Source of the DNA: Clostridiales bacterium
GTDB lineage: Bacteria > Bacillota > Desulfotomaculia > Desulfotomaculales > VENG01
Assembly: GCA_016278505.1 (NCBI GenBank)
Contig: JADQBQ010000015.1
Span: 35,936-99,935, forward strand
Direction of reading: 5' to 3'
Length of the DNA: 64,000 nucleotides
The notes beneath the pieces were generated by a model. The model did no database searches. It had not been told where the DNA came from and saw only the letters and a program-made list of their open reading frames with translations. Shown one piece after another: positions 17,676 through 38,087 of this stretch. How positions within the stretch are numbered: the first letter of the stretch is position 1; each line of letters opens with the position of its first letter. Both the position numbers and the translations under genes were made by a program.

Positions 17676-19937
17676 TTAGGAACCAAGGTTTAGCTTTGAG
17701 TTCTTACGAGACACAAACTTTTGATGTACATAAATCCCGATGAATACCAGCAAACCGATTACATCTGAGTATATACCTACATATAAGAGCCCCAACCCGG
17801 AGGCTAACAACAAGAAACGCTCCAACCAGCTTAAATTCCTGTCAATGTAACCTACCACGGCCGTCCCCAGGCTAAACATACCCAAGATAGCAGTACCAAA
17901 GGCCAAAGAAAAAGTTCCGACGGTTGCATCGACCATTAATAATTCCGGATTTAATACAAACATGTAAGGAACCAGAAAGGCGCCTATGGCAATCCGAACT
18001 GCTTGAAATGAAGTTTGCATGGGATTACTTTGGGCCAGGCCCGAACCTGCATAGGCAGCCAAAGCCACCGGTGGGGTAATGTCCGCCACTATACCAAAGT
18101 AAAACACAAACAGGTGTGCCGCAATGACCGGTACTCCATCAAACGCCAAAAGGGCCGGCGCGGCCATGGTGGCAGTGATTACGTAGTTAGCGGTGGTGGG
18201 CAGCCCCATACCCAAAATAATACTGGCAATCATGGTGAAAAACATGGTCAAAAGCAGTTTGTTGTTGGCCAGATCTAAGATGCCACCGGAGATTCTTAAT
18301 CCCAAACCCGTCAAAGTAATAACCCCAACAATGACGCCCGCTGCCGCACAGGCAGCAATCACGGGCAGAGCCACGCGGGCAGATTCAATCAAAATCTCCA
18401 TAAACCTGGCCGGAGTTAATTTATACTCCAGCTCTCCGTATTTACCCAGTAAGTAGGCAATAAGCAATACGGCCAAGTTCATAAACACCGAGGTAGCTAT
18501 TCCCATTAGCGCGGCACGCATGGCTGATTGCCCACTGGATAGAATAGCTATAATTACAACAATAGGAAGCAGCAGGTACCCCTGGCGGGTCAATAATTTA
18601 GTAACACTGGCCAGTTGACTGCGGGGAACACCCATAATTCCGACCCGTTTCGACTCAAAGTGAACCACAATGAACTGCCCCACAAAGAATAGCAGCGCAG
18701 GAATTATGGCCGCTTTCATTATTGCACCATATTCAAGACCGGTAAACTCAATCATCAAAAAGGCGGCCGAGCCCATGATCGGTGGGGTAATCTGCCCCCC
18801 GGTGGAAGAAGCGGCCTCCACCGCAGCTGCAAACTCCGGTTTATAACCGGAGCGCTTCATCATGGGAATGGTAAATGCACCGTTCCCCACGGTATTGGCA
18901 ACCGAACTGCCGGTAATCATGCCCGAAAAAACACTGGTTAGTACTCCAACCTTAGCAGTACCACCGGTCATCCAGCCGGTTAAGGACATGGCCAGATCGG
19001 TAAAAAACTTTTCCAAGCCTGTTTTCTGTAAAATAACACCGAACATTAAAAACAAGAATATAAATGTAGTAGAAATGGCAATGGGGATGCCGAATATACC
19101 TTCCAAACTAAGAAATGAGTGCGAAATAATTCTTTCAATGCTGAATCCTCTTTGCTGGAAAAAGGCCGGCATATACGGCCCCACATGGGCATATAGAAGC
19201 AGCATAGAAGCCAGTATTACGATGGGCAGACCCACAGCCCTGCGCGCTGCCTCCAGTACCAGTAAGACTCCCATACCCGCCATTAAATAGTCTAAGTTAT
19301 TGTACATGCCCACCCGGTGAATAATGGCATCATAAAAGAAAAATTGGTATAAACCGGTGCTAAAACCGAGCAAGGCTAATATAATATCCGGGAGAGGTAC
19401 TCCCTGATAGCTTTTCTTAAAATATTTGCTTAGTTGAAACAAAAGTGTAATGACGATGGCACCCAAGGTAACGGGTAAAGCAATTCTACCGTCATAGTAA
19501 AAGAACCCCGCCAGAATCAGTATTACTGCGGTGGGTACCCAACTTCGCCAGGTAACCTTGGTATCAGTCCTTATATTGGCGGGATATAGAAGGAATATCA
19601 ACCCCAGAGCCATAGCCACGTGAAAGCCCCGCTGCTGATTCGATATCAGCGTACCGAAGATAGCAGTATAAAGCTGAAAAACGCTTAAAGTAATACAAAT
19701 AGCAGAAATAACCCAATACCACCACTGGCCCAACATCGTTTTTTTACGATAATTGGCCCCGGTATCATATTTTTCCACCATTTCCTGCGCTTTGGCCTCG
19801 TACTCCTCTATGTTATCCCCGGCAATTATTTTTGCATACCTATCCTCTTGCTGCCACTCAGAATCGGCTACCAGGTTCTCTTGTTTTTCAGGCAAATCTT
19901 GGTTCCGGTTCTTTAAATTGTGATCATTATTCGTCAT
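17676..19937 (-). CDS. TRAP transporter fused 4TM/12TM permease (DctQM, TAXI type)
   Basis: 753 residues, more than fifteen hydrophobic segments after a hydrophilic N-terminal stretch of about 65 residues. Fused small and large permease subunits are typical of TAXI-type TRAP importers, which use ion gradients to take up organic acids or amino acids caught by an extracellular binding protein. Conserved loops include GGQITPPIMGSAAFLM, MGLPTTANYVI and VADITPPVALAAY. It is the third gene of an operon with the binding protein and a DUF1850 protein; a 173-bp gap with two hairpins separates it from them. Confidence 0.93.
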   Translation of the reverse strand: MTNNDHNLKNRNQDLPEKQENLVADSEWQQEDRYAKIIAGDNIEEYEAKAQEMVEKYDTGANYRKKTMLGQWWYWVISAICITLSVFQLYTAIFGTLISNQQRGFHVAMALGLIFLLYPANIRTDTKVTWRSWVPTAVILILAGFFYYDGRIALPVTLGAIVITLLFQLSKYFKKSYQGVPLPDIILALLGFSTGLYQFFFYDAIIHRVGMYNNLDYLMAGMGVLLVLEAARRAVGLPIVILASMLLLYAHVGPYMPAFFQQRGFSIERIISHSFLSLEGIFGIPIAISTTFIFLFLMFGVILQKTGLEKFFTDLAMSLTGWMTGGTAKVGVLTSVFSGMITGSSVANTVGNGAFTIPMMKRSGYKPEFAAAVEAASSTGGQITPPIMGSAAFLMIEFTGLEYGAIMKAAIIPALLFFVGQFIVVHFESKRVGIMGVPRSQLASVTKLLTRQGYLLLPIVVIIAILSSGQSAMRAALMGIATSVFMNLAVLLIAYLLGKYGELEYKLTPARFMEILIESARVALPVIAACAAAGVIVGVITLTGLGLRISGGILDLANNKLLLTMFFTMIASIILGMGLPTTANYVITATMAAPALLAFDGVPVIAAHLFVFYFGIVADITPPVALAAYAGSGLAQSNPMQTSFQAVRIAIGAFLVPYMFVLNPELLMVDATVGTFSLAFGTAILGMFSLGTAVVGYIDRNLSWLERFLLLASGLGLLYVGIYSDVIGLLVFIGIYVHQKFVSRKNSKLNLGS

Positions 19938-19987
19938 AGAATCACCTTGTAGTCTTTTCTTTTTAGTAAGGGGAATAAAGAAGACTT

Positions 19988-20089
19988 GGTTCAGGTGGGG
20001 TTTTTACCCCATCTGAACCTTAGTCGCACTTATTTCGAGCTTACAGCCTGTTAATCCCCGACCTAACAGGGCGGGGTCTTACAGGCTGT
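19988..20089 (-). promoter_or_regulatory. Two strong stem-loops in the TAXI-TRAP intercistronic gap
   Basis: Two inverted repeats in tandem: arms GGTTCAGGTGGGGT / ACCCCATCTGAACC (19988-20019) and ACAGCCTGTTAATCCCCG / CGGGGTCTTACAGGCTGT (20043-20089). Neither is followed by a clear T-run on the minus strand. They may set the ratio between binding-protein and permease messages by partial termination or by protecting the upstream message. Confidence 0.65.
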
Positions 20090-20110
20090 GCGAAGATAAG
20101 GCGGGGCCAA

Positions 20111-20632
20111 CTACATCAACACACTTTCGAAGAATGGTAGAACATAAAAATCCACATAACAGCCGCCCTCGGTAACGTCCAACAGGCGTAGACTGGTACC
20201 GTCACCAAAAATTAAGGTATGATCAGCCACTACCTGACCCACTCTTAATGGTACACGCTCAAACGTACGATTCTCATATACAATCTTATAAAAACCTTCT
20301 TCAACAATAAAGGATGTCTTTTCATGGGCTAATTTTTCGGGTCCCACCGGAAGGTTAGACCCGAAAGAGTCATAATACATCTCCTTCAGCGCCAGTGTTT
20401 TTTTATCCTTAACGTAATAAATCTCCTGTACCGGCTGTTTAGTAATGGAATGAATATACTCAAGGGTAAAAGTTTCTCCCATCTCCACTCCTTCTTCAAA
20501 CAAAACTTTACCGGTTTGGTGCTCCTGAACGATAATAACAGCCGGTGGTGCCGCCAGCAAAGCTGTAGACACCACCAGTAATACACCCAATAATATCCAT
20601 AAACAGGCCCTTAGATTAGGCCGCTTTAGCAT
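20111..20632 (-). CDS. DUF1850 domain protein of the TAXI-TRAP operon
   Basis: 173 residues with one N-terminal membrane segment (LWILLGVLLVVSTALLAAP) and a beta-rich exported domain containing FTLEYIHSITKQPVQEIYYV, the DUF1850 hallmark (an HS-x-x-x-x-P-V-x-E pattern). DUF1850 genes regularly sit between TAXI binding proteins and fused TRAP permeases; their function is not known. Here it starts 2 bp after the binding-protein stop. Confidence 0.88.
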   Translation of the reverse strand: MLKRPNLRACLWILLGVLLVVSTALLAAPPAVIIVQEHQTGKVLFEEGVEMGETFTLEYIHSITKQPVQEIYYVKDKKTLALKEMYYDSFGSNLPVGPEKLAHEKTSFIVEEGFYKIVYENRTFERVPLRVGQVVADHTLIFGDGTSLRLLDVTEGGCYVDFYVLPFFESVLM

Positions 20633-20634
20633 TT

Positions 20635-21645
20635 TTATTCAAGGAGCCCCTGCTCTTGGAAGTACTTTTCAGCACCAGGATGCAGCGGGACCGGAGCAAA
20701 TCCCTTTACCGCATTATCCAAAGTGATTTGGTTGCCGCGATTGTGGGCCTGAGCAATGGTCTCCACGCTTTCATACATTTGTTTGGTGAGATTGTAAACC
20801 AGCTCTTCATCCATGTCGGCAGGTACATACAATGATGCCCACTGGGCAACTGTATAGCCAACTTCATCTTCACCTTCATAAGTCCCGGCAGGAATTTCAA
20901 AGGCACTAAAAGCAGGTGCTTCTTCCAGCAGCTTATCCAGCCCGTCCCCTTTAATATCAACAATGTTGACCGGGGTAGCCGTGGTAATGTCTATAATGTT
21001 AGCGGCAGGAACCGCTAATACGGCAAATGCGGCATCAAGATTACCGTCTTTAATCTTCCTCGCGGCATCGCCAAAAGTGTCCTGGAATTTCTCAATATCA
21101 CTGTCAGGGTCAATACCATAAGCCTGCAGGATCTTAATTGCAGACGATGCAGTACCGCTGCCTACGGGACCAATAGATACGCGCTTACCCTTGAGGTCTG
21201 CAATTGTTTCAATTCCGGCATCCTTAGCAGCAACAACTTGCATGATCTCAGGATAAATAACACCGGCACCGGCAATGTTATCCACAGCATTACCTTCAAA
21301 GTCCCCTTCGCCTTTCCAGGCAGCCTGGGCAATACCGTTCATGGCCATGGCCAAGTCTGTTTCTCCACTGGACAGAAGACGAATATTCTCCACAGAGGCA
21401 CCCGTGGATTGCACTGTTGCTTTAACATTGTCAATGTTGTCTGTCCAAACTGCGGCGATGGCTCCTCCAAGAGGATAATATGTGCCACCGGTACCACCCG
21501 TGGCCATCAGCAGATTATTAACCTCACCACCACTTTGTTCCTCTCCGCCTCCGTCTTCACCTTCACCACCGGCACCACCACATCCTGTGGCAACCAGCGA
21601 CACTGCTAATACCAGCGCTAACATCAGTACCCACAACTTTTTCAC
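20635..21645 (-). CDS. TAXI family TRAP transporter solute-binding lipoprotein
   Basis: 336 residues. A lipoprotein signal with lipobox VATGC near residue 22 is followed by an acidic glycine-rich linker. The domain begins LLMATGGTGGTYYPLGGAIA, the signature of TAXI binding proteins; related proteins bind glutamate or other small organic anions. TIADLKGKRVSIGPVGSGT is a further conserved block. It leads an operon with DUF1850 and the TRAP permease. A 28-bp palindrome lies 39 bp upstream. Adjacent glutamate-handling genes make an amino-acid-like ligand plausible, but this is inference. Confidence 0.92.
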   Translation of the reverse strand: MKKLWVLMLALVLAVSLVATGCGGAGGEGEDGGGEEQSGGEVNNLLMATGGTGGTYYPLGGAIAAVWTDNIDNVKATVQSTGASVENIRLLSSGETDLAMAMNGIAQAAWKGEGDFEGNAVDNIAGAGVIYPEIMQVVAAKDAGIETIADLKGKRVSIGPVGSGTASSAIKILQAYGIDPDSDIEKFQDTFGDAARKIKDGNLDAAFAVLAVPAANIIDITTATPVNIVDIKGDGLDKLLEEAPAFSAFEIPAGTYEGEDEVGYTVAQWASLYVPADMDEELVYNLTKQMYESVETIAQAHNRGNQITLDNAVKGFAPVPLHPGAEKYFQEQGLLE

Positions 21646-21762: not shown

Positions 21763-23013
21763 TTACAGCTTACCGTTGGGATAACGAAATACTTCTCCTT
21801 CCCAGGTTCTAAACATTACATAGTCGGGCCCTATAGAAAGAAGGTATTGCGGAACCAAAGGAGTCTTTCCCTTTCCACCCGGTGCGTTAATAATATACCA
21901 GGGGACGGCAAGACCGGATGTATACCCACGTAAATGTTCCATAATATCCAGCCCGTCCTGCACTGTAGGTATAAAATGCGTAGTTCCTTTAACCGCCTTG
22001 GCATGGAAAATGTAATACGGCCGAACGTGAATTTTAAGTAACTCGTGGTTCAATTTTTTCATTACATGCTTGTCATTATTAATGCCCTTAAGGAGCACAG
22101 ACTGGTTGCCCAATGGAATGGCCGCCTTGGCTAAAAGCCGTGTTGCCTGCAGTGCCTCCCGGGTTACTTCCTTGGGGTGGTTAAAATGAGTATTTACATA
22201 CAGGGGATGGTGTTTTTCCAGCATATTGCACAATTCCGGTGTAATGCGCTGCGGCATTGTAACCGGAGTCCGGCTGCCGATACGCTTTATCTCTACATGT
22301 TCGATTTTATCTAATTCAGAAAGGATCCAGTCCAAACGGTCATCGGTAAGCGTGAAGGGGTCGCCTCCTGTAATCAAAACATCCCGTACCTCAGGACTCT
22401 TGCGGATGTAATCAATGGCAGCTTCAATTTCCAGCACCGGTGACGATTTATCCACTTCCCCGATATCCCGCCTGCGCTGACAGTGCCGGCAAAACATGGC
22501 ACATTGGTTGGTAACATTAATAATTAGACGGTCTGCATAACGCCTTGTTATTCTTGGAGCGGGTGAAGTATACTCTTCTCCCATAGGATCATGCTCACCT
22601 GTAGAGTCCTGAATTTCACGAATACTGGGAATTGCCTGCATTCGTACCGGACAATTCGAATCCTCGGGATCCATAAGGCTAAGGTAATAAGGTGAAACCG
22701 CCCAACGACATGTTTTACTTACTTCAGCAAGCTGCTTTACTTCTTCATCGCTGAGAAGTAGAAACTTTTGAAGAATTTGCACATCACTTATGCGGTTTTG
22801 AATCTGCCAGTGCCAATCCTTCCAATCCTTTTCGGTAGCATTAAAGAAAGCTAAAATCTTTATCTTCCTGGCAGCATATTCACTTTCCAACTTGAACCCC
22901 GTGGGAATGTCTTTTGACGCTTCCCTATATTCATTAATTCGACTTTTAAGCTCGTCAGACCTGTCCACAGCCAACTTCTTTTTTTTGCTATTAGAAGAAA
23001 CCATAAAAATCAC
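21763..23013 (-). CDS. eam: Glutamate 2,3-aminomutase (KamA family radical SAM/PLP enzyme)
   Basis: 416 residues, full length for the lysine 2,3-aminomutase family. Radical SAM Cys171-x3-Cys175-x2-Cys178 (CAMFCRHC), and the PLP lysine in GGKGKTP (Lys383). Substrate residues decide the call: Clostridium lysine aminomutase has Asp293 (YQCD) and Asp330 (VDAPGG); here they are Lys339 (FHAK) and Asn376 (INAPGG), as in glutamate 2,3-aminomutase (Lys332 and Asn369 in the Clostridioides difficile enzyme, a constant offset of 7). It would convert L-glutamate to beta-glutamate, a known compatible solute. A separate unit 438 bp downstream of the fused mutase gene. Confidence 0.85.
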   Translation of the reverse strand: MIFMVSSNSKKKKLAVDRSDELKSRINEYREASKDIPTGFKLESEYAARKIKILAFFNATEKDWKDWHWQIQNRISDVQILQKFLLLSDEEVKQLAEVSKTCRWAVSPYYLSLMDPEDSNCPVRMQAIPSIREIQDSTGEHDPMGEEYTSPAPRITRRYADRLIINVTNQCAMFCRHCQRRRDIGEVDKSSPVLEIEAAIDYIRKSPEVRDVLITGGDPFTLTDDRLDWILSELDKIEHVEIKRIGSRTPVTMPQRITPELCNMLEKHHPLYVNTHFNHPKEVTREALQATRLLAKAAIPLGNQSVLLKGINNDKHVMKKLNHELLKIHVRPYYIFHAKAVKGTTHFIPTVQDGLDIMEHLRGYTSGLAVPWYIINAPGGKGKTPLVPQYLLSIGPDYVMFRTWEGEVFRYPNGKL

Positions 23014-23451
23014 CCCCGTTTCCTAAAAACTACAGGCAATCTTTCTCATACACAAAGTTGGAGTTATATTATATATATTCATCGCCCTTAATTTAAATCC
23101 TCCTCAAAGGACAAATATTTTAGTTTACATATCTATAAACCTATCCTCATTGCATAGCATGCCAAATCTCGTATATATTATAAAATTTAACGTTTTCCTA
23201 TTTAAACCATAACACCGCTACCAGCCATAAATTAACATGAATTTTCCTCCCATCTCAACATTCTTTTTAAATTTCGTTTCCCCATATTAAGGTTATTTGA
23301 CAGCCTTTACAATTATTAGTTTTTGTTCATAGAAAGTCTTTTCGACATCGTTTTGTGAAGAGAAATGCCCCTACGTCGGTACGTTTTGACCAACACAGGG
23401 GCAATGCACTAAATAAAATATTCTATGGGGTTAATCATGTCGGAACAATAA
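23014..23451 (-). other. Long intergenic region with a stem-loop at 23366-23403
   Basis: 438 bp without a supported gene, strongly AT-rich. A hairpin with arms TGCCCCT / AGGGGCA extended by wobble-paired TGTTGGT / ACCGACG lies 49 bp after the mutase stop and probably ends that transcript, though no clean T-run follows. The aminomutase promoter should be in the remainder; ATATATTATAAAAT near 23172-23185 is a possible -10 region on either strand. I see nothing else. Confidence 0.5.
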
Positions 23452-26400
23452 TCAGTTCTTAACCTGCAGCGGCTTGAGGTATTGCTTCATTAAATGAAGA
23501 GCCCGTTCGGGGTCCAGCCGCCCATACAAGCCTCCTAAAATTGATACTAAATAAGAAGCATCCAAAAGCACTTTTCCTCCGGGCCGCAGCCGTTTTCCAT
23601 CCCCGGCAGAATAAAGTGCGCCCGAAGCAATTAATTTTAAGTCATCATAATGGTAATCCAACCCCTCGCTGCACTTATGATAAATAGTGCCTCCTATGAG
23701 AAGTGTAGTACACTCCTCGGTTAAGAAATTTACCCCGTATTGCAGAAAATAAGTATCGGTTTCATCCACGTATCCCACATTATTGCCGGTGGCAATGGAC
23801 ATTATTTCCTTGGCCAGCAAAGAATATACCGCCACCCACTCTCTTTCGGTGGGCATATAATGCGGATTTTTATGAATCCAGATAAGCATATTCTCCAGGT
23901 CTATACTCCTATTACCCTTTGGTCCGGAGGCAAACTGGTTAAAGGATTCTCCACCCGGCTCATAATCAGGGAATTTGGCATTAAAGAATTCATTTAGTTC
24001 TTTCTGCAATTCCCCGCTGCGATAGCGCTCCAATTCCATAAGGTTTTCTGCATTATAGCTAAGCCCGTATTTACCTTCTACCCTCCGGTAAGCCAGCGGT
24101 GCATTGGGAGTCTTTAATATGGTTCGCTTTACTTTACGGAATTCATCTTTTCCGTCATAAATATAAAGGGGGTTTTCTGCCACGTTGGCATAAAAATCTG
24201 TGGTACACCCGCCTATGTCCAGGGCGACAATGTTTCCTAAACCTTTTTCTCTGCCATACCCCTTGGCCAAAAGATTAATTCCAAGGAAAGCAGCACGCGG
24301 GGTGGGTAAAAACTTGGCGGTCATATATTCCTCCACCACGTCAAAACCCTTACCGCGAATAATAATGGTTTGGAAAAGCTCACGTATTGTTTCGTTGACG
24401 GCCTCAATGTGAAAGTTATTCACTTCGGGCATAACATTTTCCGTAACCCTGGCATCCACACCGGCCTGTTCGAATATAGACTTCACATCTCCGGCAACAT
24501 CCCGGTTGCCGGCGTAAACCACGGGCACACCGTACCGGGCATAAGTTGCGTGCCCGGCATACCCGGACAGTAAACGGGCATTGTGGAGCTGAGTCTCAGT
24601 TTCACCCCCGTTATCCACACCTCCGGTCAATAAAATAATTTCAGGCTGATCAATTTCGTAAATGGCCTTGGCCTGTTCCGAAGTCAATTTACCGTCATAG
24701 CTGTTGAGCAATTTGGCCCCTGCCGTGAGAGCGGCCAACTCGGCAGCAAAACCACTTTCTTCCTTAACCAGGGAAACAGTAACAACCTTTAAACCGCCTT
24801 TGGCACTGCTGCAGGGAAGCTTTATATCAAATTCCTGCATTTTTTCATCCAGGGGTTTCCAACTCCCCTTTTTCTTGCACTCTTCCCGAACCCCAAGCCC
24901 GTCGGCCAAACCTTCGCGCAAGTCATCAGGAGTAGTGGGGACATACTTTAGGCTGAATTCATCCGTGGACGTATCCAAAACGCCTACCTTGGTAAATGTG
25001 CTGCCAAAGTCGGCTACCAACACTTTTTTGTTAGCAAAATCAGTAATCCCCAATTCTTTGCGAAACTCCTGCACTACTTCTTCAGTATCCTCGGCTAATT
25101 CTGAAATATATGACTCGTCATCAGCCCTGCTGACATCTTTAAGGAAGTACCACGGTACCCTTTGACGCACCCTGTCTACCCTGACTAATTCATTTTCCAC
25201 CTTATGCCCGTTAAATTCATCAATGCTACACATACCGTCAATTACTTTGGTGCGGCACTTACCCACCATTTCATATCTTTTATCCAAAACAGTAATCTGC
25301 GGCGCTTGGAACAGCCCTACCTGAAGTCCCAGATCCAACGTATCACCACTAATCATCCCACAGTGCCCGGTGGGATAATTATCTTCATTAATTAAATCTA
25401 AAAGCATGGTTTCATAGTTTTGGCTTACAGCATAGTCCATGAAATTCTCTAAGGTAATAACACCATCATATCCACCCATCAAGGCCAGGTGAAAAATATT
25501 ATACATCACGCCACGTTTAAGCTCTTCTTTACGGTGGCAAAAACGTGTGTCATCGGTTATATCCGGTAGAGCACCCCGGTAGTAATTCCTAAAGACCTGT
25601 TTTACTATGTCACAGCTTTCGATAATATCCCTGGCCCTTGCTTCGTGGTGGGCCTCGGGGTAACTTACCACGTGCACAATGTCAGGCTCCATGTACATCT
25701 GCCATAAGGTACTTACGGAAAGATGCCCCTTGGCCTCATCAAGATTGGGCGGAAAGCTGGAGAGACCTCCCCGGGTTTCTTTAATAATATGAAAGTCAAA
25801 ATGCCGGGTAAGCGGTTCCAGTAGCTCATAGGCCGCCGACATTTTGGCCAGGTCGTAAAGCGGTGCAATTTCAGGTGGCAGATCAAACATAAGCTGCATA
25901 ATATAATTCTTAATGCCCGCTTTAAGGGCCACAATACCGGCTACAATATGATCCACCACGTACATGTCATCCGAACAATTCCTGAGCTGCCACTGGTGGG
26001 GGTCATTTATTTCCAACGGTTTATTTTGTTCGGCCCACCAGCGGATTACTTCAAAGTGCTCATCGATACCTTCCCTGATAGCGATGGGACCGCGACCGTC
26101 CAGCTTATTATAGAAAAATATGGGGACAGCGGGGAAGGGCATGTTAAATGCCTCTTCGAATAATCGGGCCACCTCCAAAAGCTCGTCAGTGCCGGAATAA
26201 ATACGTGTAGTGGGCCAATTGCCCCGGCGGGAAGCTTCTTTAAGCCGCCACAGGTCTTCTTTGCTGCGTATGGGTGTACCACCCTGCCCCTTAAGATACT
26301 TGTCCGGATCTTCCTCACCGCGCACAAATTTTGCCAGGTAGGCCTGGCAGGGCTGATCCGGGGCTAAAGATACTATTTCCAGGGCCCCGGCATCGCACAC

Positions 26401-27060
26401 TTTTTCTATATCCTTTATGGTATCATCAATGCTTTCCGAAGCCACTCCTATATGGGCCCTGATTATGGGTCTATTTTCGCGTTCTCGTACTTCCTTTATC
26501 CTCTGCAGCAGGTCATCTGACCATGTCATTTCTTCCGGCTTTTCCGGCGGCAGCCCCCTGGCAAAACGCTCCAACTCTTCCATGGTCACATAGTCATCTA
26601 CTATAAGCTCGAAGAAACTCTTAAATTTTTCCTTATTCCTGTATTCTAGTGCAATCTTATCCAGGTCATAATTGCGGTCTTCCGGTGGTGAAAACTTATC
26701 CTCAATCGCCGGCTTACCGGTCATAGCCCTAACCAGGTTGGCTGCCGGGCGCAGCCCCCCAAAACAATAGCGGATACCGCTGGTTTGAGGATCAAGCTCG
26801 TGCCGGCAAGCCAATTCCACAAACTCACTGATCAATTTATCAACGTGTAAATCACCCAGCCGGCTGGAGATACCGACAACGGCCGGCCGGGCTTCCTTAA
26901 TCTTATTAATAACATCTGAAATGGCCACGGCCGGGCCCAGTTTTACAGCAACATAGTTGTACCCCTTATCTTCCATCCACTCAGCGAATGTCTCCACTCC
27001 CAGGGAGTGCACGCAGTCACCTATGGAGCCAACCATTACCCTGTTTTTCTTTTCGGTCAT
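23452..27060 (-). CDS. Fusion of B12-dependent glutamate-mutase-like enzyme with its GlmL/MutL-type reactivase
   Basis: 1202 residues, three units that are normally separate proteins. Residues 1 to about 140: cobalamin-binding Rossmann domain with GSIGDCVHSLG (His18 the likely Co ligand; one residue more than usual between Asp and His). About 180-620: a TIM-barrel mutase domain like methylaspartate mutase E, including SLAPDQPCQAYL, DGRGPIAIREG and INDPHQWQLRNCSDDM. About 675-1202: an ASKHA ATPase like GlmL/MutL, with VADFGSTFTKVGVLD at 682-696, LTGGVDNGG 811-819 and DIGGCTTDFYA 948-958. GlmL-type proteins are thought to service the cobalamin of their mutase. Substrate unknown. AGGAGG precedes the ATG; 17 bp after the opine dehydrogenase-like gene. 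Confidence 0.85.
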   Translation of the reverse strand: MTEKKNRVMVGSIGDCVHSLGVETFAEWMEDKGYNYVAVKLGPAVAISDVINKIKEARPAVVGISSRLGDLHVDKLISEFVELACRHELDPQTSGIRYCFGGLRPAANLVRAMTGKPAIEDKFSPPEDRNYDLDKIALEYRNKEKFKSFFELIVDDYVTMEELERFARGLPPEKPEEMTWSDDLLQRIKEVRERENRPIIRAHIGVASESIDDTIKDIEKVCDAGALEIVSLAPDQPCQAYLAKFVRGEEDPDKYLKGQGGTPIRSKEDLWRLKEASRRGNWPTTRIYSGTDELLEVARLFEEAFNMPFPAVPIFFYNKLDGRGPIAIREGIDEHFEVIRWWAEQNKPLEINDPHQWQLRNCSDDMYVVDHIVAGIVALKAGIKNYIMQLMFDLPPEIAPLYDLAKMSAAYELLEPLTRHFDFHIIKETRGGLSSFPPNLDEAKGHLSVSTLWQMYMEPDIVHVVSYPEAHHEARARDIIESCDIVKQVFRNYYRGALPDITDDTRFCHRKEELKRGVMYNIFHLALMGGYDGVITLENFMDYAVSQNYETMLLDLINEDNYPTGHCGMISGDTLDLGLQVGLFQAPQITVLDKRYEMVGKCRTKVIDGMCSIDEFNGHKVENELVRVDRVRQRVPWYFLKDVSRADDESYISELAEDTEEVVQEFRKELGITDFANKKVLVADFGSTFTKVGVLDTSTDEFSLKYVPTTPDDLREGLADGLGVREECKKKGSWKPLDEKMQEFDIKLPCSSAKGGLKVVTVSLVKEESGFAAELAALTAGAKLLNSYDGKLTSEQAKAIYEIDQPEIILLTGGVDNGGETETQLHNARLLSGYAGHATYARYGVPVVYAGNRDVAGDVKSIFEQAGVDARVTENVMPEVNNFHIEAVNETIRELFQTIIIRGKGFDVVEEYMTAKFLPTPRAAFLGINLLAKGYGREKGLGNIVALDIGGCTTDFYANVAENPLYIYDGKDEFRKVKRTILKTPNAPLAYRRVEGKYGLSYNAENLMELERYRSGELQKELNEFFNAKFPDYEPGGESFNQFASGPKGNRSIDLENMLIWIHKNPHYMPTEREWVAVYSLLAKEIMSIATGNNVGYVDETDTYFLQYGVNFLTEECTTLLIGGTIYHKCSEGLDYHYDDLKLIASGALYSAGDGKRLRPGGKVLLDASYLVSILGGLYGRLDPERALHLMKQYLKPLQVKN

Positions 27061-27077: not shown

Positions 27078-28310
27078 TTATCCGATTGCATTTAAACCGG
27101 TGGAATCAAGCTTGCCCTGCAAGAGCAGTCCTCTTAAGCCACTAATGTCATTGATTCCATAGTTTTGGGGAATACGCCCCTCAACAATGTCCTTCCCGGT
27201 CAAAAAACCGTTTTTCATATATTCCTTACCCATCCACCGGGAAGCAACGGAAATTACTCTATCTATAACAGGGGTAGACACACCTACCAGGCGACCCAGG
27301 GCAGCAGTTACAAGTAACCCCGTAGGCACGTCTTCCACCAGATACCGGCTTTTAAAATCCGGCACATATCTTTTACCGTCCAGCCTTTTCACTGGAACTT
27401 TTAACCCTTTATAAGCACGGTTTGTTCTAAAAGCCAGAGCCAGGGTGCTGTTGTCTTCTATTTGTCCTGCATAAGACTGCAGAAGCCATTCTTCCACGGT
27501 GGGTATGTCCTTCATGCTTATGTCCGGCCCCAGTTTACACTGCAGCTCATTTTTCACCAGCTGCACTTCACCGCTCAATTCGTGCAGCACAGCAGCAGTG
27601 CTTTCGCTAACACCGCCGTAAAAAAGTGGAATGTGGTCCTGACTGAAGGATTCGCCGGTATAATCCCTGAACAAACCGTACATGATACCGGGATGTATAA
27701 TCTGTCCCACATTGGCCAGGCTCAAAGCCAGCATGTTGGAGTAGGGATAGACATTTACTCCCAGCATTTGACCCAAAAGATCACACAACGGCTCTGTTTT
27801 GTTTTGGGGTAAAGCGGCCGCCCCCACCCCCTCTTTTATGCCCAGTATTTGCACTTCCCCGCCGGGTTCCTTCAACCGGCAGGCCCAGGGTAAAGTTTGC
27901 AGGCCGAAAACCGTAAATTCCTTGGGTCCCAAATCAGTTAAAATACGCCAGGCCTGGTACTTGAAACCACTGCGGGATGGCATGGCACCCACCGTTACCC
28001 TCTCCGGCAGATAAGGTGCCAGTTGGGTCAGGATTCTCCCATGGGCAAAGGCGGGTAGTACCATGATAACCATGTCCACATTCTCTGCCGCCCGGGCGGG
28101 GTCACATGTCACCAGCTGTGGTCTAAACCTCTCAATTGCCAGCGCGCCGCTGGTACAAATGCCGCCACTGGCTTCCAGCCGGTTATTTAAAAGAGCAGCC
28201 TCTTTATCAAAAGGTGTATATACCACTACGTCACATGTCAAATTACGTGCAGCAACCGGTACCATAACATGCGTACCGTTTCCGCCACCACAAATTAGAA
28301 GTTTTTGCAT
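27078..28310 (-). CDS. Opine (octopine/nopaline) dehydrogenase family protein
   Basis: 410 residues. An N-terminal Rossmann fold begins LLICGGGNGTHVMVPVAA (NAD(P)-binding glycine motif), and the C-terminal half is the helical octopine/nopaline dehydrogenase domain, with NVGQIIHPGIMYGL and the catalytic-type His in IIHPG. Such enzymes make or split N-carboxyalkyl amino acids (opines) reversibly with NAD(P)H. It is the first gene of a unit with the fused mutase, behind a GntR-type operator at 28351-28364. It could use an opine-like substrate, but members of this family also act in metallophore synthesis and other routes; substrate not assigned. Confidence 0.82.
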   Translation of the reverse strand: MQKLLICGGGNGTHVMVPVAARNLTCDVVVYTPFDKEAALLNNRLEASGGICTSGALAIERFRPQLVTCDPARAAENVDMVIMVLPAFAHGRILTQLAPYLPERVTVGAMPSRSGFKYQAWRILTDLGPKEFTVFGLQTLPWACRLKEPGGEVQILGIKEGVGAAALPQNKTEPLCDLLGQMLGVNVYPYSNMLALSLANVGQIIHPGIMYGLFRDYTGESFSQDHIPLFYGGVSESTAAVLHELSGEVQLVKNELQCKLGPDISMKDIPTVEEWLLQSYAGQIEDNSTLALAFRTNRAYKGLKVPVKRLDGKRYVPDFKSRYLVEDVPTGLLVTAALGRLVGVSTPVIDRVISVASRWMGKEYMKNGFLTGKDIVEGRIPQNYGINDISGLRGLLLQGKLDSTGLNAIG

Positions 28311-28378: not shown

Positions 28379-29140
28379 TCACCTTTTCCTACACCCTTTC
28401 CTATAATCAAGTGCTGCATATATTAATTTGTTATACACGTTTAAGGACTGATTAGTTGGCAACATCATTTCCGGGTGAAATTGAACCCCTACTACAAAAC
28501 TATGCTGCCTGCTTTCTATGGATTCGGCTATTCCGTCAGTACTATAAGAAGATATCACAAACCCGGGCGCCGGTTGATCAATTGCCTGCCGGTGGAAACT
28601 GTTAACCCACATTTCTTCGATGTGAACAGAGAAAATTTCCTTGAGAGAGGCATCCCTTGTAAATCTTATAAGGTGGGTGGGTATGGCCATGTTTTCCTGC
28701 TGCCGGTGCTCCCAGCGAGTCACCCGGCTTAAATTTAAAATCATAGTCCCCCCGGCAGCCTCATTCAATGTCTGGTGCCCCCGACAAATACCCAATACCG
28801 GCATATCTCTCTCCAGCGCCATGACACAAAGAGCCAAATCAAAGGCATGACGACGGGGGTTTTGAGTTTTTAGATCAGGCAAATTAACATTACAGCCTCC
28901 CCGTGCCGTTTTCTCCACTGTCATTGCCCTGTATTCAGGATCACCTCCGGTCATTAAAAGACCGTCAATACGGCGGAACATTTCTCTCAGTAAATCCATT
29001 TCTTCCACCACCGGCATCAATACCGGCATGCCGCCCGCCTTAATAACAGCCTGCATATAGGCTGCACGCAGGTATAATGCATCATCCAGGGTAGTCTCCC
29101 CGGGGCGGAAACAGAGATTGATACCAATTGCCGGTTTCAT
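28379..29140 (-). CDS. Class I glutamine amidotransferase-like gamma-glutamyl hydrolase (peptidase C26)
   Basis: 253 residues. Catalytic Cys119 in LGICRGHQ and the His222/Glu224 pair in QFHPEM complete the triad. Size and motifs match gamma-glutamyl-GABA hydrolase PuuD and relatives, which split gamma-glutamyl amides to glutamate and an amine. It is encoded 6 bp after the last importer gene and is probably cotranscribed, so an imported gamma-glutamyl compound may be cleaved here. The exact substrate is not known. Confidence 0.88.
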   Translation of the reverse strand: MKPAIGINLCFRPGETTLDDALYLRAAYMQAVIKAGGMPVLMPVVEEMDLLREMFRRIDGLLMTGGDPEYRAMTVEKTARGGCNVNLPDLKTQNPRRHAFDLALCVMALERDMPVLGICRGHQTLNEAAGGTMILNLSRVTRWEHRQQENMAIPTHLIRFTRDASLKEIFSVHIEEMWVNSFHRQAIDQPAPGFVISSYSTDGIAESIESRQHSFVVGVQFHPEMMLPTNQSLNVYNKLIYAALDYRKGCRKR

Positions 29141-29146: not shown

Positions 29147-30163
29147 TTACTCCCCCTGCGCTTCACCGGTATAATGATGGCATGCCACCCAGTGTTCGGG
29201 TGCCACCTCTCGCCAGGCCGGCTCTTTCTCATTGCAGCAACCACCCCTCTTGTTAAAACAGCGGGTATGAAAACGACACCCTGGTGGTGGATTAATGGGG
29301 CTTGGAACTGTGCCTGACAAAATCATGCGATCCCTTCGCGCCTCCCTGTCCACTACCGGAATGGCGGATAGAAGAGCCTGTGTATAAGGGTGCAGCGGGT
29401 GTTCAAATAATTCCCTGGTAGAAGCCATTTCTACGATCTTACCTAAATACATTACCGCTACTGCATCACTGATATAAAATATAACACTCAGATCGTGGGC
29501 AATAAAAAGATAAGTTAAGTCAAACTCATCTTGCAGTTCTTCCAGCAGATTAATAATTTGCGCCTGTACAGATACATCCAGAGCGGAAACAGGTTCATCC
29601 GCTACAATGAACTCAGGCTGCATAGCCAGCGCCCTGGCTATGCCTATACGCTGCCTTTGGCCGCCGCTAAACTGGTGCGGATACAGATTTATATGGCGAG
29701 GACTTAAACCCACTTTCTGCAGCAAGTCATATACAATCTCTTCTCGCCTCATGGGCTCTTTGACCCCACGATTTTTAAGTGGTATTCCAACTATGTCTCT
29801 TACTGTCTTACGGGGATTTAGGGAAGCGTACGGATTTTGAAACACCATCTGCATCTTATGCCTGTATTGGTTTAACTGCTCTCCGTGCAACTTGGTAACA
29901 TCTTCCCCGTCATATATAATCTGTCCCTGAGTAGGGTCTTGAAGGCGAATAATGGTACGCCCCAGGCTGGTTTTGCCACACCCGGATTCTCCCACCAGGC
30001 CAATGGTTTGCTTTTTCCCCACCCGTAGATTAATACCATCCACCGCCTGCACACTTATATCTTTATGCCTGGTGAGCAGTTTTGTTAAGTAACTCTGTTT
30101 AATGGTGTAATACTTGTGTAGATTTTTTACCTCCAGCAATACCTCCTGCTGCGGGTTAGTCAC
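29147..30163 (-). CDS. Peptide/opine-type ABC transporter ATPase (DppF/OppF)
   Basis: About 338 residues. Walker [13 protein letters not shown], signature FSGGQRQRIGIARAL, Walker B IVADEPVSALD, and a C-terminal oligopeptide-transporter extension with PGCRFHTRCF. It drives uptake with its partner ATPase upstream. I prefer the GTG start at 30163, which follows AGGCGGTGATACG and lies just after the upstream stop; a start at 30232 would overlap that gene by 50 bp and add 23 atypical residues. Confidence 0.92.
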   Translation of the reverse strand: MTNPQQEVLLEVKNLHKYYTIKQSYLTKLLTRHKDISVQAVDGINLRVGKKQTIGLVGESGCGKTSLGRTIIRLQDPTQGQIIYDGEDVTKLHGEQLNQYRHKMQMVFQNPYASLNPRKTVRDIVGIPLKNRGVKEPMRREEIVYDLLQKVGLSPRHINLYPHQFSGGQRQRIGIARALAMQPEFIVADEPVSALDVSVQAQIINLLEELQDEFDLTYLFIAHDLSVIFYISDAVAVMYLGKIVEMASTRELFEHPLHPYTQALLSAIPVVDREARRDRMILSGTVPSPINPPPGCRFHTRCFNKRGGCCNEKEPAWREVAPEHWVACHHYTGEAQGE

Positions 30164-30182
30164 CGTATCACCGCCTGTCACT

Positions 30183-31169
30183 TTACTGATAAATGGCACA
30201 CCGCACCTGGTGCCCTTCCAATAACTCAACAATATCTACAGCGCAAAGGCATTTATCATGTGCCTGGGAACAACGCGGATAAAAAGAACAACCTTCCGGC
30301 AAATCCGCCAGGTCAGGCACTGTTCCCATTATCGGTAAAAGTTTTTGCTTTTGCGTGGTTATCTTGGGGATGGAATGCAAAAGTCCATCTGTATACGGGT
30401 GTTGAGGATTCTCAATAACATCCTGGGTTTTACCCATCTCCACAATCTCACCGGCATACATCACGGCAATCCGGTGGCAAAACTCAGCAGCCAGGGCTAA
30501 ATCATGCGTAACCAGAATAATGCCTGTACCGCGCTCCTGATTAATTTGTTTAAGTAAGGCCATTATCTGCGCCTGGATAGTTACATCCAGCGCCGTGGTG
30601 GGCTCATCGGCCAGCAATAAGTCAGGCCGGCAGGACAAGGCCAGTGCAATTAGAGCCCGCTGCTGCATACCGCCGCTATATTGATGGGGAAATTCATGAT
30701 AACGCGACTCTTCGGATGGAATACCAACTTCCTGCATCAACTTCAGGACCATTTCCATTTCCTTTCTTTTTCGCGCCCCGTCAAGAAAAGGAATACTTGA
30801 GTTGGAAGCCACCATTTCGTGAATGCGCAAGGATTCTCTTACCTGCTCACCCACTTTAAAAACAGGGTTAAGGGTAGTCATAGGATCCTGAAAGATCATG
30901 GAAATCTTTTGTCCCCGCAGGCGGCGCATCTCCCGTCCTGGCTTGGTTAGAATGTTTTCCCCGTCAAGTTTTATCTGACCGTACTTTATCTTCCCCGGGT
31001 ACGGTATCAAGCGCATAATAGTCAAAAGCATAGCACTTTTACCACAGCCGGATTCGCCTACCAGCCCCAATATTTCACCTTGATCCAGTTTAAGGCTTAC
31101 GTTTTGTATGGCCTTAACCGGCTTTTTAGCCGTATCATAATACATAGATAGGTTTTCAATCTCTAACAT
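30183..31169 (-). CDS. Peptide/opine-type ABC transporter ATPase (DppD/OppD)
   Basis: 328 residues. Walker [12 protein letters not shown], signature [15 protein letters not shown], Walker [12 protein letters not shown], and the C-terminal Cys-rich end (CSFYPRC, KCLC) found in DppD/OppD proteins. Start at ATG 31169, preceded by AAAGGGTG; a GTG at 31178 is a weaker choice. Third from last in the importer operon. Confidence 0.92.
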
Positions 31170-31181
31170 GTGATACACCCT

Positions 31182-32114
31182 TTACTGATCAGTTCGCAAG
31201 CGAGGATCCAATATATCGCGCAGTCCTTCTCCCAACATATTAATGGCCAAAACCAGTGTCAGCAGGAAAAGTCCCGGGAAGGTGGAAATCCACCAGGCAT
31301 TCATCATATAGTCCTTACCCGCTTTAATCATGGAACCCCAGGCGGCCTGGTCCTGAATCCCCAAACCCAGGTAGCTCAAAGATGCTTCCATGATTATCAT
31401 AAAGCCCATACGCAGCGTTGCTAATACAATAACAGAATGGATAATATTAGGTAACACCTCGGAAACCATGATGGCAAAGTTTCTCTGTCCTGTTATCTTT
31501 GCAGCCTCTACATATTCTTTTGTCTTTTCGGAAAGCATCTCGCCCCGGACCAGGCGGAAGAATTCAACCCAGCCCTTAAAAGTTAGGGCAAAAACAAGGT
31601 TGCCGAAACCGGGACCGGTAGCTGCCATCATACCAATGGCAAAAATAAGAAAAGGAAACGCCAGTAAAAGGTCCCCAAAGCGAGATACAATATTATCAAA
31701 CCAGCCGCGGTAATAACCGGCTATTACCCCAAAAAGAATACCTAAAGTGACTGAAATCCCCACCGTAACAAAACCCACCAATAAAGAGATACGGATTCCG
31801 TATATAATCCTGCTTAAGAGATCTCGTCCCAGCTCATCTCCCCCAAAAATGTGCGCCGAAGTACCCCCTTCCATCCAAGCCGGCGCTAAAAGGCGATTAT
31901 CCAGCGTCCCCTCATCCGGGCCGTAAGGAGCTAAGTAAGGAGCAAAAATTGCCATCAGGATAAAGATCATAATTACTACAGCCCCAAACAAAGCGGTGGG
32001 GTGCCTGACGAGCTTGGAGCCAAATTCTTTCCAAGCATTCCACCACAGTTTGAGCCGCAGCATAAGGTAATAGGAATGCCGGTTGCGCGGTTCTATTTGT
32101 AACGCTCCCTTCAT
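31182..32114 (-). CDS. Peptide/opine-type ABC transporter permease (DppC/OppC)
   Basis: About 310 residues, six membrane helices. An N-terminal OppC-type segment (WNAWKEFGSKLVRHPTALFG) leads into FGGDELGRDLLSRIIYGIRIS, characteristic of DppC. The EAA-loop EYVEAAKITG contacts the ATPases. Start ATG at 32114 follows AGGAGTGAGCAC, 10 bp after the dppB stop; an earlier Met at 32168 would overlap dppB and lacks a site. Confidence 0.92.
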   Translation of the reverse strand: MKGALQIEPRNRHSYYLMLRLKLWWNAWKEFGSKLVRHPTALFGAVVIMIFILMAIFAPYLAPYGPDEGTLDNRLLAPAWMEGGTSAHIFGGDELGRDLLSRIIYGIRISLLVGFVTVGISVTLGILFGVIAGYYRGWFDNIVSRFGDLLLAFPFLIFAIGMMAATGPGFGNLVFALTFKGWVEFFRLVRGEMLSEKTKEYVEAAKITGQRNFAIMVSEVLPNIIHSVIVLATLRMGFMIIMEASLSYLGLGIQDQAAWGSMIKAGKDYMMNAWWISTFPGLFLLTLVLAINMLGEGLRDILDPRLRTDQ

Positions 32115-32124
32115 GTGCTCACTC

Positions 32125-33144
32125 CTAAAGGCTGATCTTGGGATTAATATAAGTATATAAGACATCAACTACCAGGTTAGCTATTACATAAGTAAGTGCA
32201 TAAATCATTACCACTCCCTGAACAAGTGGGTAATCCCTGGAAAAAATAGCGTCCACAGCCAACCTGCCTAAGCCAGGCCACCCAAAAACCGTTTCCACAA
32301 TCATATTTCCGCCCAGCAGCACCCCTATTTGAATCCCCACCACGGTAACGGTAGGAATCAGAGCATTGCGCAGAGCATGCTTTACAACTACTCTGAATTC
32401 GTTTAAACCTTTTGCCCTGGCCAGAATAACATAATCCTGCCGGAGCACTTCCAGCATACTGGAGCGAATAACCCTGGCCACAATGGCTGCCATGGCCGCC
32501 CCCAGAGTTACCGCAGGTAAAAACAAATGCTTTACGCTGCTTACAAATGCCGGCCAGTTACCTGTAAGTATACTGTCAATAACATAAAAACCGGTAGTAT
32601 AATGCAGTTCCATGCCGTAATCGATTCTGCCGGCCACCGGAAACATTTTCAACTTCACCGCAAAGATTAAGATCAGCACAATGCCAAGCCAAAAGTTAGG
32701 CATGGAAATTCCCAGAAAGGATCCACCCATGGCCACCCGATCAAGCACGGAATACTGGCGTACAGCAGAAATAATGCCTATGGGCATAGCAATTAACAAT
32801 GCCAGCACCGTAGCCGCAAGGGCAAGTTCTATGGTTGCCGGTAATGTCTGCCAAATAATATCCGCAACCGGCTGACGGCGGGTAAAAGAATTGCCCAGGT
32901 CTCCCCGCGCCATACCTGAAAGAAAGTATCCCATCTGTACATAAAGCGGTTTATCCAGATTAAACTCTTCCCGCAATGCTTCCTCTTCCTCCTGCGTAAC
33001 ACTGCCGCTGTCACCCATCATAAGATCCACGGGGTCACCCGGCGTAAGACGCATAAACATAAACACAATAATAGCAACACCGAGCATGATGGGAATGGCT
33101 ATCAATACACGTTCCAAAATTTTAACAAACCTCACATATCTCAC
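32125..33144 (-). CDS. Peptide/opine-type ABC transporter permease (DppB/OppB)
   Basis: 339 residues, six membrane helices. N-terminal helix followed by FMRLTPGDPVDLMMGD, the DppB/OppB hallmark, and the EAA loop VILARAKGLNE. It follows the binding-protein gene after a 336-bp gap that holds a mobile-element-like repeat and two hairpins, so message levels of binding protein and membrane complex are probably set separately. Confidence 0.93.
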   Translation of the reverse strand: MRYVRFVKILERVLIAIPIMLGVAIIVFMFMRLTPGDPVDLMMGDSGSVTQEEEEALREEFNLDKPLYVQMGYFLSGMARGDLGNSFTRRQPVADIIWQTLPATIELALAATVLALLIAMPIGIISAVRQYSVLDRVAMGGSFLGISMPNFWLGIVLILIFAVKLKMFPVAGRIDYGMELHYTTGFYVIDSILTGNWPAFVSSVKHLFLPAVTLGAAMAAIVARVIRSSMLEVLRQDYVILARAKGLNEFRVVVKHALRNALIPTVTVVGIQIGVLLGGNMIVETVFGWPGLGRLAVDAIFSRDYPLVQGVVMIYALTYVIANLVVDVLYTYINPKISL

Positions 33145-33480: not shown

Positions 33481-35055
33481 TTACTCGATAGCTACGTCGT
33501 GCAGGTTGATACGACTGTCCGGGCTGGGTTCCCAATTTTGCACACCGGCTGTACATGCTTCAATCACATCGGTACCGTAGCCGAAGACCCAGGCAGCATC
33601 ATCATAAACAATCTGCTGCACCTGCTTATACTTCTCCGCCCGCTCTTCCTGGTCCACAATGGATTCCGCTTCTTTAAGCAACCTATCCACTTCTTGATTA
33701 CTGTAACAAGCATAGTTACCCCGGCCCCCGGTAAGGAACTGCGGGTTTAAAATTCCATATGGATCCAGGGTGGAATTGCCCCAGTCCTCTACTACCATTG
33801 AACGCTCACCGTTCAATAGTTTCGGTCCTAATACGCCCCAATCCCATACACGCACACTGGCGTCAACCCCCACTTTTCTAAGCTGGCTGGCTACCGCATC
33901 TGCAATCTCTTTCAAAGACTCTTTACAATCGATGATTAACGGGAAACCATCCTCATATCCCGCCTCGGCCAGTAATTGCTCTGCTTTTTCAGCATCGTAT
34001 CCATATGGGTTTAACTGATCATTATGGGCAAAGGCCTCCGGGAGAAGAGGACCGGCTAGTGCCTGGCCGTTACCGCCCAAAATAGCCTCTACAATTTTCT
34101 CCATATCCACTGCATAGTTCATAGCCTTTCTTACCTTCACATCGTCAAAAGGCTCTTTGGTAGTATTCATGGCGATAAAATGTACCGTTGTTCCAATACA
34201 GCGCTTAACCTGAACATTTTGATCACTCTCCAGTTGACTGATCATATGCGAAGGAACTTCCTGAATGATATGGGCTTCTCCACGCTGCAAGGATGCGATG
34301 CGTGAAGATGTTTCCGGCATAATTTTAAACACAACTTGAGATGCCGGTGCCGGGCCAACAGGCTCAATTTCAGGTGACCCACCGTAGTATTCCTCAAAGC
34401 GCTCCATAATAATTTCTCCGCTAAGATCACCGCTGACAAATTTAAATGGACCTGCCCCCACGGGATTTTCAGCAAAATACTGGTCGCCTTTTTCAGTAAT
34501 ATAATCTTTTGGTACTATCTGCTGGTGTGGCAGCATTTTCAAAAATACCGGCCAGGGTTCGGAAAGGATAAATTTAACTGTATAATCGTCCACCTTTTCC
34601 ACTGCTTCCACTGTACCTAAAAGCCCCTTACGTGGTGACGTTTGTCCGTCAATAGCCTCTTCGGTTAAAATACGGCTAAAAGTAAAAGCAACGTCTTCAG
34701 CATCCAGTTTCTCTCCATTATGGAAAGTGACACCTTCTCTGATTTTAAAGATCCATTCGGTGGGGCTTGTTGCCTCCCACGATTCTGCAAGTTCAGGTAC
34801 AATTTCCATGTCCGTAGTCCTTGTTACCAGTCCGTCAAACATATTGCGAATAACGGTCTCCGTTTCCCTGTCACGGTGCATAGCGGGATCCAGTGTCAAA
34901 ATACTGTTCTTCATCCCTACCACCAAAGTATAATCCGTTTGCTGCTCACCGTCGGCTGACTGCTTCTCTCCCTCGCCTCCGCCACCACAACCCGCAAGCA
35001 GCAGGCTGAAAAGGACAACTACCAAAACAATAAACACCGATTTTTTAATTTTCAA
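33481..35055 (-). CDS. Peptide/opine-type ABC transporter substrate-binding lipoprotein
   Basis: 524 residues, SBP family 5. Lipoprotein signal with lipobox LLAGC near residue 23, then a glycine/glutamate-rich linker. Family blocks: TLDPAMHRDRETETVIRNMFDGL, PTEWIFKIREGVTFHNGEKLDAEDVAFTF split over residues of about 90-130, and VRKAMNYAVDMEKIV. It captures peptides, opines or similar solutes outside the membrane and is first in the operon. A GntR operator and a promoter-like sequence lie upstream. Confidence 0.92.
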   Translation of the reverse strand: MKIKKSVFIVLVVVLFSLLLAGCGGGGEGEKQSADGEQQTDYTLVVGMKNSILTLDPAMHRDRETETVIRNMFDGLVTRTTDMEIVPELAESWEATSPTEWIFKIREGVTFHNGEKLDAEDVAFTFSRILTEEAIDGQTSPRKGLLGTVEAVEKVDDYTVKFILSEPWPVFLKMLPHQQIVPKDYITEKGDQYFAENPVGAGPFKFVSGDLSGEIIMERFEEYYGGSPEIEPVGPAPASQVVFKIMPETSSRIASLQRGEAHIIQEVPSHMISQLESDQNVQVKRCIGTTVHFIAMNTTKEPFDDVKVRKAMNYAVDMEKIVEAILGGNGQALAGPLLPEAFAHNDQLNPYGYDAEKAEQLLAEAGYEDGFPLIIDCKESLKEIADAVASQLRKVGVDASVRVWDWGVLGPKLLNGERSMVVEDWGNSTLDPYGILNPQFLTGGRGNYACYSNQEVDRLLKEAESIVDQEERAEKYKQVQQIVYDDAAWVFGYGTDVIEACTAGVQNWEPSPDSRINLHDVAIE

Positions 35056-38056: not shown

Positions 38057-38087
38057 TCGTTTACCTCCAAGTGCAGCGATGCAAATA

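Follow-up and report, generated by a model that had tools for sequence, protein, structure and literature searches.

The locus described here raises the question of what a single protein that combines a cobalamin-binding domain, a mutase-like barrel and a MutL-type ATPase does for the bacterium that encodes it. The gene lies in a 64,000-nucleotide stretch of a Clostridiales bacterium genome (assembly GCA_016278505.1, contig JADQBQ010000015.1; hereafter, the window), at the end of a cluster of genes for uptake and hydrolysis (Table 1). On balance, and with modest confidence, we favor the reading that its product is an adenosylcobalamin (AdoCbl)-dependent radical mutase of an unnamed family resembling the glutamate mutase subunit GlmE, fused to a MutL/GlmL-type ATPase and ending an operon for the catabolism of an opine or amide. 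By analogy, a GlmE-type mode of action is the best reading of the chain; AdoCbl binding over the barrel, radical generation and skeletal rearrangement would be expected because of the family resemblance.

The open reading frame, Pfam matches and fold match agreed on a cobalamin domain, a GlmE-like barrel and a GlmL/MutL-like ATPase on one chain of 1202 residues, as an initial annotation of this DNA had described. Pfam scans identified MutL and a weak B12-binding match, leaving the middle of the chain blank. The MutL match (PF13941, residues 680-1195) covered the full profile and scored 263 bits against a cut-off of 27 (E 5e-78), while the score for the NCBIfam GlmL equivalog NF040745 was 269 bits (E 7e-80), under its cut-off of 475. 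The ATPase motifs DFGSTFTK (684-691), DIGGCTTDF (948-956) and IGGTIYHK were all intact. A frameshift or a sequencing or assembly join was ruled out as the source of the fusion, as the single chain is intact in nine genomes. The initial annotation had pointed out that these are separate proteins in known glutamate mutase systems; for a mutase fused to its repair factor there is a precedent in IcmF, where nature has joined an AdoCbl mutase to a chaperone of its own, a G-protein (PMC10481361, citing Cracan 2010). IcmF combines a MeaB-type P-loop GTPase with an acyl-CoA mutase barrel, whereas the window protein combines a MutL-type ATPase with a GlmE-type barrel, and no P-loop G-protein or GTPase chaperone domain was identified in it by the Pfam scan, MutL being in its place.

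The kinship of the barrel was assessed from models and from relatives of about 550 residues that are not fused to the ATPase and whose barrels are 32-45% identical to those of the fused proteins. Pfam gave no match for the middle segment even at an E-value of 1, bar one at chance level, and PF06368 (Met_asp_mut_E) did not match the window protein. In the unfused relatives, PF06368 gave two matches above its cut-off (down to 1e-7) and others below it at 2e-4 to 2e-3. AlphaFold2 models of residues 1-671 (predicted local distance difference test score, pLDDT, 59) and of the barrel only (pLDDT 63, predicted template-modeling score 0.72) both had the alternating strands and helices of a triosephosphate isomerase (TIM) barrel. 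Foldseek analysis of the barrel-only model returned glutamate mutase E (1cb7_B) as the top PDB match, with an E-value of 7e-8 and a template-modeling (TM) score of 0.60 by either length, followed by ornithine 4,5-aminomutase, lysine 5,6-aminomutase and methylmalonyl-CoA mutase. The longer model yielded the same families, with GlmE again first, and the possibility, raised at the outset, that the barrel would align with no B12 mutase was not borne out. In addition, hhalign aligned the unfused relatives collinearly with GlmE over ~390 columns (probability 83-85%, E ~6e-6 to 9e-6).

The alignment to GlmE, weak as it is, suggested a change at the substrate site. R66, R100 and R149 of GlmE, which we take to be the arginines that hold the substrate carboxylates, aligned with H203, Q239 and Y288, which are invariant in 66-67 of 67 sequences, and GlmE E330 aligned with the invariant E469. 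Because all three positions of this arginine claw are replaced, the substrate is likely to be other than glutamate, in keeping with the earlier proposal of a distinct mutase with its own substrate. Claims at the level of single barrel residues are uncertain because the alignment is weak and the confidence of the models low to medium. We do not claim membership of glutamate mutase for the protein, given both these positions and a Pfam result that does not reach the PF06368 cut-off.

The N-terminal domain matched PF02310 (B12-binding) at residues 7-102 with an E-value of 5e-6, under the curated cut-off. A PDB sequence search with the single window protein gave weak B12-domain matches only; the profile of the unfused relatives over this part matched corrinoid proteins, OraE and GlmS in the PDB. 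The best sequence matches of the domain were corrinoid proteins from methyltransferase systems. Conservation of the DxHxxG motif was scored in a 67-row alignment of the fused protein and its relatives. The Asp position was occupied by Cys (Cys16 in the window protein) in 60 of the 67 rows and by Asp in six, H18 and G21 were invariant, and the residue preceding Cys16, D15 in the window protein, was variable. The sequence GDCVHSLG, previously read as having an extra residue between Asp and His, is therefore a replacement of Asp by Cys with no insertion, and this replacement is common to most of the family. The most divergent unfused relative (L060 7021-8862) has the canonical Asp and a very long branch, and may represent a separate subfamily.

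The strongest clue to function is the pairing with an opine dehydrogenase, rather than the fusion. The gene immediately upstream of the fused gene encodes a protein with an Octopine_DH match (PF02317, 5e-34), and a profile of 13 such neighboring dehydrogenases matched, at full length, Pecten octopine dehydrogenase (3c7a, 7e-91) and N-(1-D-carboxylethyl)-L-norvaline dehydrogenase (CENDH; 1bg6, 6e-89). Octopine dehydrogenase has a His-Asp dyad and an Arg324 NADH sensor (PMC2924402). Its His212, Arg324 and Asp329 (the last number taken from the alignment) aligned with H206, R322 and D327 of the window dehydrogenase and were conserved in 13 of 13 sequences. A gene of this family adjoined the mutase gene in each of the eight fused loci whose sequence covers that position, and in nearly all fetched unfused loci of the Bacillota and Chloroflexota, on the opposite side in the latter. 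In this tight linkage to a bacterial B12 mutase gene, the window-type dehydrogenases differ from the octopine dehydrogenase/CENDH family that they otherwise match. The initial annotation had suggested, from the neighboring genes, a glutamate-like or opine-like compound; the opine part was supported by the dehydrogenase being the tightest neighbor; for the glutamate part the adjoining glutamate 2,3-aminomutase gene, present in no other fused locus, is weak evidence.

To determine how far the family extends, a profile of the B12 domain and barrel was searched against 398 genomes sampled evenly across the Bacillota, with counts made by hand. Strong matches were found in 86 of these genomes, with the fused form in three (G000, G178 and G208) and the unfused form in about 84, G208 having both. 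In the Chloroflexota (the phylum of G485), 14 of 251 genomes had a match, two of them fused and twelve unfused; viral contigs had no match to the unfused profile. Apart from its B12 domain and the weak match to GlmE, the unfused protein is covered by no NCBIfam or Pfam model. Open-access literature yielded no description of the mutase family or of a fused GlmL, of an opine dehydrogenase with a mutase, or of methylaspartate mutase with an opine, nor of close homologues with a known substrate. The B12 mutase family is therefore widespread and apparently undescribed. MutL was present above its cut-off somewhere in 42 of 60 genomes with the unfused form, and adjacent to the mutase gene in six fetched loci, which makes it a frequent, non-obligatory partner. 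Since MutL is not obligatory, a 1:1 supply of enzyme and repair factor is no more than plausible as the reason for the fusion. Derivation of the fusion from an operon with an adjacent MutL gene was unsupported, as neither the barrel tree nor a quick tree of MutL nested the fused clade among MutL-adjacent loci. A small membrane-like protein (~200 residues) recurred near the unfused pair in five loci (L137, L139, L140, L142 and L056).

Six full-length fused homologues were identified, all single chains with 64-75% identity to the window protein over the whole length. They are labeled Clostridiales PH28_bin88, UBA993, a 'Desulfovibrio' metagenome-assembled genome (MAG), an Ardenticatenales MAG, UASB270 and a SAR324 MAG; MAG labels may be wrong, chiefly that of L023. 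Whole-genome searches added G178 and G671, giving nine with the window (L021 and G208 being one contig). In the maximum-likelihood tree the nine fused proteins, from unrelated phyla, formed one long-stemmed clade (100/100). The window protein was the sister of the SAR324 protein, and the fusion was found in none of 99 genomes sampled from the window organism's own order. Based on these two observations, the fused gene has probably moved between phyla.

A survey of gene neighborhoods, such as the initial annotation had recommended, distinguished the two forms: the fused loci carry amide hydrolases, the unfused loci often amide-forming enzymes. In 70 unfused loci, genes were counted as close within 2.5 kb of the mutase gene and as further at 2.5 to 8 kb. 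An AsnB-like asparagine synthetase was close in 13 loci, always on the same strand, and never in the further range; a D-Ala-D-Ala-ligase-like ATP-grasp enzyme was close in 11 loci and further out in three places. No locus had both of them within 2.5 kb, and one or the other was close in 24. These neighbors spread over many families, so that the link is not an accident of a single lineage. The C26 hydrolase was found in none of the 70. Amide hydrolases were present in eight of the nine fused loci, of type C26 in the window, L021, L022, L023 and L042 (the last by 42% identity to the window C26), of the AAT/C45 type in L135 and L129, and in L024 as a gamma-glutamyltranspeptidase with an Amidohydro_3 protein. 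Dpp/Opp-type ATP-binding cassette (ABC) genes were found in seven of eight fused loci (the window, L021, L023, L042, L026, L135 and, in part, L024), with a TRAP-TAXI system in their place at the eighth, L025. From gene context, we infer that a compound of the opine type, amide- or peptide-linked, is made by the unfused systems and taken up and degraded by the fused ones. The broader proposal, of a widespread, new, non-glutamate B12 mutase family that serves as a make/break pair for an opine- or amide-type metabolite and whose fused operon has spread horizontally to consumers, is one that we put forward tentatively, with less than even confidence. Ala_racemase_N-family proteins lie beside an unfused (L114 7927-8988) and a fused (L024 3969-5060) mutase, hinting at a D-amino acid step.

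In the catabolic scheme that we favor, the peptide-type ABC importer would take up an amide- or peptide-linked, opine-like amino-acid derivative, and the C26 hydrolase would cleave the amide. Neighboring steps would fall to the opine dehydrogenase and the mutase, the former splitting or making a secondary amine in an NAD(P)-dependent manner. The N-terminal domain of the fused protein would bind AdoCbl over the barrel, where the 5'-deoxyadenosyl radical would rearrange the amino-acid skeleton, and the product would feed into fermentation. For the GlmL family, ATP-driven opening of the enzyme and release of damaged cobalamin have been inferred. The MutL domain may similarly hydrolyse ATP, open the enzyme and release damaged or inactive cobalamin from its own active site. 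Reloading could proceed via one of two CobA-type adenosyltransferases encoded in the genome, in which no PduO-type adenosyltransferase was found; Rfam identified no cobalamin riboswitch in the window. An unfused mutase-dehydrogenase pair with an amide-forming enzyme would use the same chemistry for synthesis.

Several observations weigh against this scheme. With the motif Asp replaced, base-off binding of cobalamin is not assured; the fused-only barrel profile had no significant match to GlmE in profile comparison, and confidence in both AlphaFold2 models is low to medium. Opine dehydrogenases form a broad family, whose member here may act on a non-opine. In the unfused-locus counts related lineages are not independent, and 46 of the 70 loci have no amide-forming neighbor within 2.5 kb. 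At L025 (UASB270), the TRAP transporter is accompanied by no evident amide hydrolase, and 18 of the 60 genomes with the unfused form, essentially complete genomes among them, have no MutL above the cut-off.

Three other explanations were weighed against the same data. The tie between mutase and dehydrogenase could reflect a system for oxidation and rearrangement of a free amino acid, with no opine or amide involved, as in ornithine aminomutase with 2,4-diaminopentanoate dehydrogenase or lysine aminomutase with 3,5-diaminohexanoate dehydrogenase. A mutase with a dedicated dehydrogenase is a known pattern, and lysine fermentation has a parallel in the fused contig L123, which carries genes for a class III aminotransferase and a BKACE along with CoA-transferase-like genes. 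OraSE (D-ornithine 4,5-aminomutase) and KamDE (lysine 5,6-aminomutase) are also the next-best fold matches of the barrel; OraE has a B12 domain and barrel on one chain, and the ornithine system comes with the GlmL-related Or-4 and a dehydrogenase for its product. However, the domain order of these enzymes is the opposite and their dehydrogenases belong to another family, and Pfam scans of the fused chain gave no match to a family related to pyridoxal phosphate (PLP), its PLP-lysine site not being checked residue by residue. We consider this explanation unlikely, as the His, Asp and Arg sensor of the opine dehydrogenase are all conserved and this enzyme matches octopine dehydrogenase very strongly along its whole length, and as the explanation leaves the peptide-type importers and amide hydrolases unexplained.

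A plain glutamate mutase, converting glutamate to 3-methylaspartate with its subunits and GlmL fused and with glutamate fed by the C26 hydrolase, appears quite improbable. The window protein shares with GlmES/MutES (methylaspartate mutase) and GlmL the nearest barrel fold, a B12-binding Rossmann domain, a MutL-family accessory ATPase and, in all likelihood, AdoCbl radical chemistry; the next gene is a glutamate 2,3-aminomutase, and the AsnB-like neighbors of the unfused relatives would fit an aspartate analogue such as methylaspartate. Yet glutamate mutase consists of three proteins, whereas here there is one chain with the B12 domain N-terminal, and the family has His, Gln and Tyr for the arginine claw, Cys for the motif Asp and an opine dehydrogenase as partner. 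Inspection of genes near the fused loci revealed no methylaspartate ammonia-lyase, the aminomutase lies behind a terminator-like hairpin, and at least one genome with the unfused form (G123) also encodes a GlmE. The closeness of the B12 domain to corrinoid proteins of methyltransferase systems could point in another direction, namely that this domain takes up a methyl group, that the barrel removes it from a betaine or an N-methylated amino acid and that the ATPase is an activator like RACo or RamA. Methyltransferases and mutases alike use TIM barrels, and RACo-type activators are ATPases of the actin-like class. A corrinoid methyltransferase is nevertheless very unlikely, as the leading Foldseek matches were glutamate mutase, ornithine and lysine aminomutases and acyl-CoA mutases, with no corrinoid methyltransferase barrel among the best 50 matches listed for the barrel-only model. 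In addition, the PF06368 matches point to mutase E, and the ATPase is of the MutL family, with no ferredoxin-like domain found by Pfam.

To our knowledge, few AdoCbl carbon-skeleton mutases have been described. With members in about a fifth of the sampled Bacillota genomes and no Pfam or NCBIfam model of its own, this family would represent a sizeable gap in what is known of B12 biochemistry, and through its tie to an opine dehydrogenase it would suggest a metabolite yet to be discovered. The fused form would also offer a natural one-chain system in which the MutL/GlmL ATPase, still poorly understood, could be studied alongside its client, much as IcmF has served for G-protein chaperones.

Table 1. 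Positions of the fused gene, its domains and the surrounding features in the window.
Feature	Position	Strand	Basis or remark
Fused B12 mutase-MutL protein (P0001)	23452-27060	minus	Single open reading frame, ATG to stop, 1202 aa
Cobalamin-binding domain, residues 1-115	26716-27060	minus	PF02310 at 7-102 and PDB profile matches
B12 motif GDCVHSLG, residues 14-21	26998-27021	minus	67-row alignment: His18 and Gly21 invariant, Cys16 where Asp is usual
Glutamate-mutase-E-like segment, residues 160-650; TIM barrel ~200-464	25111-26583	minus	AlphaFold2 models, Foldseek, profile comparison
MutL/GlmL-type ATPase domain, residues 680-1195	23476-25023	minus	PF13941 5e-78; NCBIfam GlmL 7e-80, under equivalog cut-off; motif scan
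Opine (octopine/CENDH-family) dehydrogenase	27078-28310	minus	PF02317; 17 bp upstream of fused gene
Peptidase C26 (gamma-glutamyl hydrolase/PuuD-type amide hydrolase)	28379-29140	minus	PF07722 2e-51
Dpp/Opp-type ABC ATPase, DppF-like	29147-30232	minus	Pfam and NCBIfam
Dpp/Opp-type ABC ATPase, DppD-like	30183-31178	minus	Pfam and NCBIfam
Dpp/Opp-type ABC permease (C)	31182-32168	minus	Pfam and NCBIfam
Dpp/Opp-type ABC permease (B)	32125-33144	minus	Pfam and NCBIfam
Family 5 solute-binding protein	33481-35055	minus	PF00496
GntR-UTRA regulator, first gene of cluster	35340-36125	minus	55% identical to L021 7516-8418 (GntR and UTRA by Pfam)
Probable intrinsic terminator just after fused gene, 15 pairs	23366-23403	minus	Terminator-like hairpin
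Glutamate 2,3-aminomutase	21763-23013	minus	Above NCBIfam cut-off; next gene after fused gene
TRAP-TAXI system, follows aminomutase	17676-21645	minus	

All genes from that for the GntR-UTRA regulator through the fused gene share one orientation, and most are separated by short gaps or overlap slightly. The regulator gene, which lies upstream of the fused gene on the same strand, is carried by four fused loci. The initial annotation had placed the fused gene in a GntR regulon; the GntR-UTRA gene does stand at the start of the cluster and may regulate it. On the other side, the aminomutase gene has promoter-like sites ahead of it, at 23206 and 23097. We set aside the possibility that the aminomutase and TRAP-TAXI genes belong to the same operon: the 15-pair terminator-like hairpin and the promoter-like sites intervene, so that they are probably a separate unit, which may handle beta-glutamate. 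For the same reason, and because it is in no other fused locus, the aminomutase is weak evidence for a glutamate-type substrate. A TAXI-type TRAP system recurs in three fused loci. At G208 a similar one is paired with class III aminotransferase, BKACE and CoA-transferase-like genes, in a region where BKACE and the aminotransferase are too distant from the fused gene to count as linked.

Further upstream on the minus strand, inspection by eye identified a sigma-54-type regulator and a three-gene set resembling 2-oxoacid:ferredoxin oxidoreductase (36260-40765), a possible sink for a 2-oxo acid. This set is not conserved at the other fused loci, save for a PrpR-type sigma-54 regulator at G487. 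A c-di-AMP (ydaO/yuaA) riboswitch (44064-44207, minus, 100.5 bits by Rfam) lies upstream of genes for an ABC transporter of the polar amino-acid type (43118-43912, 42384-43064 and 41548-42369). At the other end of the window, a type I-C CRISPR-Cas-like operon (2812-10899, minus) was recognized, by eye only, from starts resembling those of cas1, cas4, cas3, cas7, cas8c and cas5.

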